This document shows, one piece after another, positions 44,645 to 46,660 of a stretch of 64,000 bases of DNA. The stretch comes from Candidatus Gastranaerophilales bacterium (lineage in GTDB: Bacteria; Cyanobacteriota; Vampirovibrionia; Gastranaerophilales; CAJFVJ01): NCBI GenBank assembly GCA_944323485.1, contig CALUSR010000002.1, forward strand, positions 318,048 to 382,047, in the 5' to 3' direction. Below the pieces are notes generated by a model. The model saw nothing but the letters and a program-made list of their open reading frames with translations. It was not told the DNA's origin and searched no databases. The first letter of the stretch is position 1; each line of letters starts with the position of its first letter. The translations under genes and the position numbers were made by a program.

Positions 44645-44669
44645 CAAATTGTTATACAATAACAATTTG
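44645..44669. promoter_or_regulatory. 25-nt inverted repeat upstream of the 44695 gene
   Basis: The arms CAAATTGTTAT and ATAACAATTTG are a perfect 11-bp inverted repeat with an ACA centre, ending 25 nt before the ATG at 44695. There is no T run after it, so it is not an intrinsic terminator. It may be an operator for a dimeric repressor or a hairpin in the 5' leader. Confidence 0.5.
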
Positions 44670-44694: not shown

Positions 44695-45111
44695 ATGAAC
44701 TTTATTATCGGAGCAGCAGGAGGACAAATACCTAATCCTGAGGAATACACAAGAAGATATGCTTCTCAACAAGGTAAATCAATTGATGAAGCAAAACAAT
44801 ACTTAAAAACTGAAATCGATAACGTGCAGGGTGTTGATAACAACCAATCATCGATAATAGGAGGAACCTCAATATGGACGGATGGGAAACAGGAAAAGCC
44901 AAACAAAAAACAAACAGACGGCATTTCCCTAAACGCTTCTTATCCTTATACTATGGATTTCAGTCAGGAAATACTTCCGCCGGAGCCTATTGACGGACAA
45001 ACTTCAGGAACATTCTCATGGTTCAACAAATTTCTAAACGGAGGAAAAAATCAGGAACAAAAAACACAAAATGATGAACAACCAAAAGAATTCAAGAGTT
45101 ATTGGGGATAA
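44695..45111 (+). CDS. small hypothetical protein, paralogue of the next gene
   Basis: This is an unrecognised 138-residue protein with no signal peptide. A short helical motif near the N-terminus, PNPEEYTRRYASQQGKSIDE followed by AKQYLKTEI (residues 13-40), is shared with the next gene (NPDSYAQKYAEQNNISLEEA). The rest is polar and Gly/Asn/Gln-rich, probably disordered, with a WFNKFLNGG patch. AGGGGG precedes the ATG by about 10 nt. An inverted repeat lies in the leader. It is followed after 38 nt by its paralogue, which has its own strong ribosome site. Confidence 0.68.
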   Translation: MNFIIGAAGGQIPNPEEYTRRYASQQGKSIDEAKQYLKTEIDNVQGVDNNQSSIIGGTSIWTDGKQEKPNKKQTDGISLNASYPYTMDFSQEILPPEPIDGQTSGTFSWFNKFLNGGKNQEQKTQNDEQPKEFKSYWG

Positions 45112-45149
45112 GTTTTTCATACCATCCCCTAAAAAAAGAGGAGGAATCT

Positions 45150-45554
45150 ATGACACAAATTAATGGATTAAACACAAATTATCAAAATCAGCAAATTAAT
45201 CCTGACAGTTATGCTCAAAAATATGCAGAACAAAATAACATCTCACTTGAAGAGGCGAGATAAGAACTGCGAGCCAAATTCGGAGAGCCTTCGCAAGATT
45301 CTTCACTTTCAGCAATGCTTGCAGGAAGCGCCCAAATTGGAATCACTCCGATGACAAATAATGACCAACCTTCAGTTTTTGGTAATTTTCAACTGCAAGG
45401 AGGACCTCAGCAACCGGGGGACCCGAATCCGCTCGGATTTGCAGGAATAATGGCAGGACGGGAAGCCAATTTCAACAATAATGACTGGGGATTCATGCAA
45501 AAGCCTCAAGAAACGGAGAATTCTGAATTTCAAGGATTAGATTTCTTTTCCTAA
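45150..45554 (+). pseudogene. paralogue of the 44695 gene with an in-frame TAA at codon 38
   Basis: ATG 45150 has an excellent AGAGGAGG upstream. The reading runs MTQINGLNTNYQNQQ, then NPDSYAQKYAEQNNISLEEA, then R, then stops at TAA (45261-45263). It stays in the same frame afterwards (ELRAKFGEPSQD...) to a stop at 45552-45554. The paralogue has Gln at the aligned position (EAK-Q-YLKTEI), so CAA to TAA is the simplest change. The downstream part is Gly/Pro/Asn-rich and remains open for 96 codons, which means either a recent nonsense mutation, readthrough, or a sequencing error. A short 37-residue product is also possible. A terminator follows. Confidence 0.7.
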
Positions 45555-45560
45555 AAAATA

Positions 45561-45590
45561 AAAGAGGATAGTAAAAACTATCCTCTTTTT
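45561..45590. terminator. bidirectional intrinsic terminator
   Basis: The stem AAGAGGATAGT/ACTATCCTCTT (45562-45572 and 45577-45587) has A and T runs outside. It ends the small paralogue pair on + and the secreted protein gene on the minus strand. Confidence 0.88.
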
Positions 45591-45607: not shown

Positions 45608-46660
45608 CTACTGTTTTGATACTTTTTCAAGCAGGTCTGAATTTCTCACTTTCAAAGCAAAATAAGGTCTGTCTTGATTTGCTTCTTTCATAAACAAAAC
45701 AAACGGCTTATCAAAGAAAAATTCTCTTCCGCCCTCTCTGCGTATAAGGCTCATAGTTGATATTACCATTGCCTCACTCTTAAGGTTCCCTCCTTTGTTA
45801 TCAAGCCCAAAATCCACTGTTTGAATCGCTTTGTCAATAAACAAACCGTTGGTTCCTACAATTTTTTTGTTGCACAACTCATCATAAGAAAACTGTTTTG
45901 AAAACTTGATGTAAGGAACTTTCAACAAATCCTGCTCTCCAAGTTCTTTTTTACCGAACCAGAATCTTTTTTGTTTCTTCATTACAGCAGAATACAAGTC
46001 ATCAAAAGATTTATTATCATCTGTTCTATAAAGAATAATCTCTTCTCCTTCTTTTGTTTTCAGCTTTATCGCATAACTGTTTTCAGAGTTGTAGAACAAA
46101 ACATCAACATTTTGATAAAGCGTAGGATTGCTTGTATTTTTGTCTATCCCGAAATATCTGATACGCTCATCACTTCCGTAAAACGGAGCCGATGATAACT
46201 CAGGGAAAGCTGACAGATACTTGAACTCCTTTTTCAACATTGCATAAACAACATACCCTTGAGATGATGTCCAGTCAACGCTGTCTATAATTGAGCTTCT
46301 TTCTCCGAACTTTTCCATCAAACCTTTTTCTATTTCTTCTTTCAGCTCCAAGCTTTTCTCTCCGTAAGCTTTGAAATAAGAATTTTCGGATAACATGCTC
46401 GACTTGAACGATTGTCTGTTGAGTTCTTCAACAAGCTTGGGAGTTTCTCCCTCAAATTTTATTGGAGCTTTGACTATTTTATCCTGAAAATCATTCCACA
46501 CAAGCTGGAATGTGCCAACCCACACATCATTTTTATCAACGGTATTTGACGGTACAAATGACGAATATTTCTCAAACCATCCCGCATCAGCAGATGAAGA
46601 TAAAATAAAACAGGCCCCGAATAAAACAAAAATTGCAGAAAATATTTTCTTCAAATTCAT
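45608..46660 (-). CDS. secreted protein, unknown function
   Basis: I recognise no family. The 350-residue product has a signal peptide (MNLKKIFSAIFVLFGACFIL, ending SSSADA, cleavage likely before GWFEKYSS). The mature domain is mixed alpha/beta: it repeats short strand motifs such as WVGTFQLVWNDFQDK, SYAIKLKTKEGEEIILYRTD, VPYIKFSKQFSYDELCNKKI and REFFFDKPFVLFMKEAN. VGTFQLVWNDF followed much later by DKPFVLFMKE, FALKVRN resembles the start and end of serpins (reactive-loop region ...RPFxFxI...), and INKAIQTVDF-like text also fits, so a distant serpin-like fold is worth testing. It is monocistronic, between two terminators. Confidence 0.65.
   Translation of the reverse strand: MNLKKIFSAIFVLFGACFILSSSADAGWFEKYSSFVPSNTVDKNDVWVGTFQLVWNDFQDKIVKAPIKFEGETPKLVEELNRQSFKSSMLSENSYFKAYGEKSLELKEEIEKGLMEKFGERSSIIDSVDWTSSQGYVVYAMLKKEFKYLSAFPELSSAPFYGSDERIRYFGIDKNTSNPTLYQNVDVLFYNSENSYAIKLKTKEGEEIILYRTDDNKSFDDLYSAVMKKQKRFWFGKKELGEQDLLKVPYIKFSKQFSYDELCNKKIVGTNGLFIDKAIQTVDFGLDNKGGNLKSEAMVISTMSLIRREGGREFFFDKPFVLFMKEANQDRPYFALKVRNSDLLEKVSKQ

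Follow-up and report, generated by a model that had tools for sequence, protein, structure and literature searches.

Belinky et al. (2021; PMC7918605) described many bacterial genes that carry in-frame stop codons and have dN/dS values below 1, and argued that such stops are frequently read through, proposing in general that an in-frame stop can act as an expression dimmer. According to the same survey, most of these stops are about as short-lived as polymorphisms. The gene analyzed here, from a Candidatus Gastranaerophilales bacterium, resembles the surveyed cases in having a single in-frame stop where a relative has a sense codon, a CAG/CAA-type precursor, and dN/dS well below 1 past the stop, but differs from them in that its stop is seen in one genome, whereas the survey relied on stops shared by at least two genomes. 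Our case fits the published description, and neither dataset decides between readthrough and a short-lived null allele for a single gene.

An interrupted gene in a conserved neighborhood

The window, that is, the entire stretch of 64,000 nucleotides that was analyzed, derives from a contig of a 2.05-Mb genome assembled in 8 contigs (99.5% complete). The genome used for comparison was that of a congener and sister species, Candidatus Adamsella avium, which comes from chicken gut and is placed in the Cyanobacteriota/Melainabacteria group, and in which the ortholog of the interrupted gene is bordered by the same genes on both sides. From 40 kb of that genome, 42 open reading frames (ORFs) were extracted, 28 of which match the window (36.4 to 64.0 kb); one of the 28 is cut by the window end, and among the 27 left for the comparison (~27 kb), only the gene at 45150-45554 is interrupted in the window. 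The frame opened at ATG 45150, which is preceded by AGAGGAGGAATCT, runs into an in-frame TAA and then continues through 96 open codons to the next stop (Table 1), as a first-pass annotation of the sequence had reported; its mention of a good ribosome site was borne out as well, the site ahead of this ATG being strong. The 96 codons are open in the frame of the gene and not in the two other forward frames, and the probability that a random frame of the same composition would stay open over this length is ~0.004.

Table 1. Features of the interrupted gene and its immediate surroundings (window coordinates)
Feature	Coordinates	Strand	Remarks
Tandem paralogue, intact, 138 aa	44695..45111	+	Divergent copy of the motif; Gln (CAA) at the matching position
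Shine-Dalgarno-like AGAGGAGGA before ATG 45150	45137..45145	+	Weaker in the sister species (AGAGGAAAA)
Coding part ahead of the premature stop, 37 codons	45150..45260	+	Holds residues 1-21 of the 34-residue motif (NPDSYAQKYAEQNNISLEEAR)
Premature TAA	45261..45263	+	CAA (Gln) in the Candidatus Adamsella avium ortholog
Downstream open part, 96 codons	45264..45551	+	Motif remainder ELRAKFGEP, then GGPQQPGDPNP; dN/dS 0.205 vs. the sister species
Original stop TAA	45552..45554	+	Next in-frame stop after 45261-45263
Example tryptic peptide predicted from the frame after residue 38			FGEPSQDSSLSAMLAGSAQIGITPMTNNDQPSVFGNFQLQGGPQQPGDPNPLGFAGIMAGR
Hairpin between two convergent genes	45560..45589	.	Terminator-like, minus-strand scored; conserved in the sister species

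A palindrome (CAAATTGTTATACAATAACAATTTG) occupies positions 44645-44669, upstream of the gene at 44695. In Candidatus Adamsella avium, its core is present as the reverse complement (GTTATACAATAAC vs. GTTATTGTATAAC); the loop has been inverted, as could result from template switching within a hairpin. The neighboring minus-strand gene 45608-46660 encodes a secreted-type protein with a weak, sub-threshold match to serpins (Pfam, E = 0.0003) and is present in 230 of the 286 genomes of the order.

Origin and age of the stop codon

The Candidatus Adamsella avium ortholog is uninterrupted and has CAA at the exact column of the window's TAA. The same codon is found in the tandem paralogue, where the earlier alignment of the stop with a Gln residue (EAK-Q-YLK) proved correct, and a sense codon also occupies this column in other motif copies; a pattern search of the order retrieved 26 copies of the motif, and the window's is the sole one with a stop there. 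By parsimony, TAA is the derived state, reached through one C-to-T change, and the CAA of the sister species confirms the single CAA-to-TAA step by which the first-pass annotation had explained the interruption. Relative to the sister ortholog, the gene contains three length differences (1, 3, and 10 codons), all of which preserve the frame.

Between the window and Candidatus Adamsella avium, dN/dS is 0.221 upstream of the stop (37 codons, with a very wide interval) and 0.205 downstream of it (92 codons; 95% interval, 0.11-0.38). When the downstream substitutions were shuffled 2,000 times, none of the shuffles yielded a nonsynonymous-to-synonymous ratio as low as the observed one, and a new stop arose in 88% of them. 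Under an assumed functional dN/dS of 0.10 to 0.205, neutral evolution is estimated to account for ~0-12% of the pairwise divergence, with an upper bound of 20-30%. Because this share is small, the gene was protein-coding for most of the divergence, which leaves two possibilities: a recent stop, or continued translation of the gene. The match between downstream and upstream selection indicates that the stop is young and supports a very recent nonsense mutation, which had been among the options raised at the outset; a low downstream dN/dS is equally expected of a gene kept functional by readthrough.

Neither relaxed selection nor further lesions were detected after the stop, where the frame is intact. 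The low downstream dN/dS and the lack of a second lesion speak against an established (old) pseudogene and, given that no decay is seen after the stop, our claim is confined to a recent allele. The dN/dS of the interrupted gene is the highest among the eight genes compared locally (0.01-0.15 in the others), which fits weak constraint.

Decoding of the stop codon

A search with RF00005 identified 42 tRNA genes in the genome, the anticodons of which, read with ARAGORN, are all ordinary; none of the 42 detected genes has a stop-reading anticodon. The normal stops of 23 neighboring genes are TAA in 15 cases, TAG in 6, and TGA in 2. Given these tRNAs and the prevalence of TAA as a regular terminator nearby, neither a code change, already dismissed in the first-pass annotation, nor a suppressor tRNA explains the interruption, and both are excluded as far as can be read from the genome. 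A stop-reading tRNA was likewise not found in the three other genomes with interrupted motif genes (G028, G048, and G507; see below), and the RNA following the window's stop folds no better than shuffled sequences (z = 0.61).

A patchy motif family with repeated interruptions

The interrupted gene belongs to a family with a 34-residue motif in the N-terminal half (consensus DPDxYAQxYAxxNGISLEEAKxxLKxKYGDP), which is present in two to four copies in some of the genes. Structure prediction for the intact ortholog was of low overall confidence (mean pLDDT 51), with two helices predicted at residues 18-28 and 33-44 at moderate local confidence and the rest of the protein unstructured. A stretch of the form GPQxxGDPQ is common to several family members, and the one in the downstream part of the window's gene resembles it, as judged by eye only. 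Searches of Pfam, NCBIfam, and PHROGs yielded only weak, sub-threshold matches to the family, none of them convincing; among PDB sequences, the family protein matched just short, weak stretches, and no homologs were found in phage records. The motif profile detected the family in 27 of the 286 genomes of the order, representing 17 of 50 genera, and in 26 of the 383 genomes of the family to which G028 belongs, whereas the source genome has a convincing motif in the two tandem genes only.

In several species (loci L013, L014, and L021), a multi-copy motif gene immediately follows a gene resembling a response regulator, with a receiver part and an end of the LuxR type. In genome G005, a motif gene (L020:1492-1851, minus strand) within a prophage-like cluster is flanked by tail- and baseplate-like genes, to which it is antisense and which we take to be phage tail genes; its position suggests the placement expected of an extra passenger gene.

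Beyond what the first-pass annotation had covered, the family has a patchy distribution, and in three other species belonging to three other genera it is interrupted by single in-frame stops with the frame open beyond them. In G028 (L015), the interruption reads YA-TAG-ENGIS, the two nearest relatives have AAG at that codon, and dN/dS of the interrupted gene is 0.215 and 0.32 vs. 0.20 for the intact pair. In G048 (L118), the stop falls in the second motif copy (LE-TAG-MYGKP), the first copy being LEQMYGKP, and in G507 (L124), a genome with 8% contamination, the sequence is RGA-TAG-QKP. With the window included, ~4 of 46 motif genes are interrupted (a rough count of loci), a high fraction that counts against the null-allele reading.

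Motif genes contain 4 internal stops in ~8,070 codons, compared with no more than a single internal stop, itself doubtful, in ~29,900 codons of homologous flanking genes at the same loci (Fisher test, 0.008; 0.03 without the window's own case). These figures are rough, since a simple pattern served to split the two classes and the alignments are uneven. Control gene 45608 has no verified internal stop among the ~150 matches listed; its high raw stop count was rejected as a sign of interruption, all 12 of the 12 flagged stops proving upon inspection to be natural C-terminal ends. The control genes are more widespread than the motif family and therefore probably more constrained.

The four stops are located at motif positions 11, 22, 26, and 31, are either TAA or TAG, and are followed by G, G, A, and C in the four cases, with no common next base. 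Repeated independent loss predicts that position, codon, and context differ, whereas a conserved recoding signal does not, and recurrent loss is most likely the best explanation of the repeated interruptions. The family represents an accessory gene with high turnover, and its patchy, repeatedly interrupted character, with several copies in some species, is in keeping with a gene of occasional benefit that is readily lost.

Explanations for the interruption

The stop is probably real and represents a nonsense (null) allele of recent origin, either fixed or still segregating, of an accessory gene in this Adamsella genome. This reading draws on the direct observations of the stop itself, CAA in the sister species, selection on the downstream half over most of the divergence, the lack of a detectable suppressor tRNA, and the interruptions elsewhere. 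A single C-to-T change would have turned the Gln codon CAA into TAA, recently relative to the split from Candidatus Adamsella avium, and translation should now terminate at the 38th codon, within helix two of the two-helix motif, so that the gene would be a pseudogene of recent origin or else a null allele that still segregates in the population. With the stop inside the second helix, the 37-residue product is most likely non-functional; this loss of function, the dispensability of the gene, and the state of the allele, fixed or segregating, are inferred. The consensus base at 45261 could be wrong or represent a minor allele. An error in base calling or in the assembly consensus, with CAA in the real population, would be compatible with the involvement of a single site and would also account for the sole broken gene of 27, but it is unlikely, given that the assembly is good, that no other interruption occurs in the compared region, and that interruptions of the motif family are also found in other assemblies.

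Alternatively, a near-cognate tRNA could allow readthrough of the stop, at a low rate or under regulation, so that some full-length protein is still made and the stop serves as an expression dimmer. The equal constraint on the two halves of the gene, the strong ribosome site kept at ATG 45150, the single stops that interrupt the motif, with an open frame beyond them, in members of three other genera, and the published survey of many bacterial genes with in-frame stops and dN/dS below 1 (PMC7918605) are all in line with this possibility. However, the four stops share neither motif position nor codon nor next base, no unusual RNA structure follows the window's stop, a suppressor tRNA was found in none of the four interrupted genomes, and the stop is absent from the sister species, which has CAA, the stops of the other species being elsewhere in the motif. 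Moreover, the survey itself concludes that most such stops have the persistence of polymorphisms. With no specific support, readthrough of the window's stop seems quite unlikely, and it is very unlikely that the family at large tolerates or uses in-motif stops to lower expression, with readthrough in several genera of the order. We consider it highly improbable that the gene has been split into a functional 37-residue peptide or a 79-residue protein re-initiated at ATG 45315: this ATG is in frame, 51 bases past the premature stop, but no Shine-Dalgarno-like sequence was seen just ahead of it, so that re-initiation at this site was rejected; furthermore, the stop cuts what is predicted, at moderate local confidence, to be the second helix of the motif, and the sister species has one uninterrupted gene. 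The recent null allele remains the preferred explanation.

Comparison with known systems

By itself, the window's stop is an ordinary recent loss-of-function change, and the interest of the locus lies mainly in the repeated interruption of the family. It points to an uncharacterised, lineage-restricted family of small proteins, patchy in distribution and repeatedly interrupted, which, by virtue of these properties, offers a convenient setting in which to ask if a bacterial gene holding one in-frame stop is dead or continues to be translated. The likeness to stop codon reassignment, namely, an in-frame stop where relatives have Gln, is offset by TAA being the commonest normal stop nearby and by the detected tRNAs, which do not read TAA. 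Compared with young bacterial pseudogenes, the window's gene differs in carrying no second lesion, decay itself not being seen, and is similar in combining one disabling change with an otherwise intact frame in an accessory gene.
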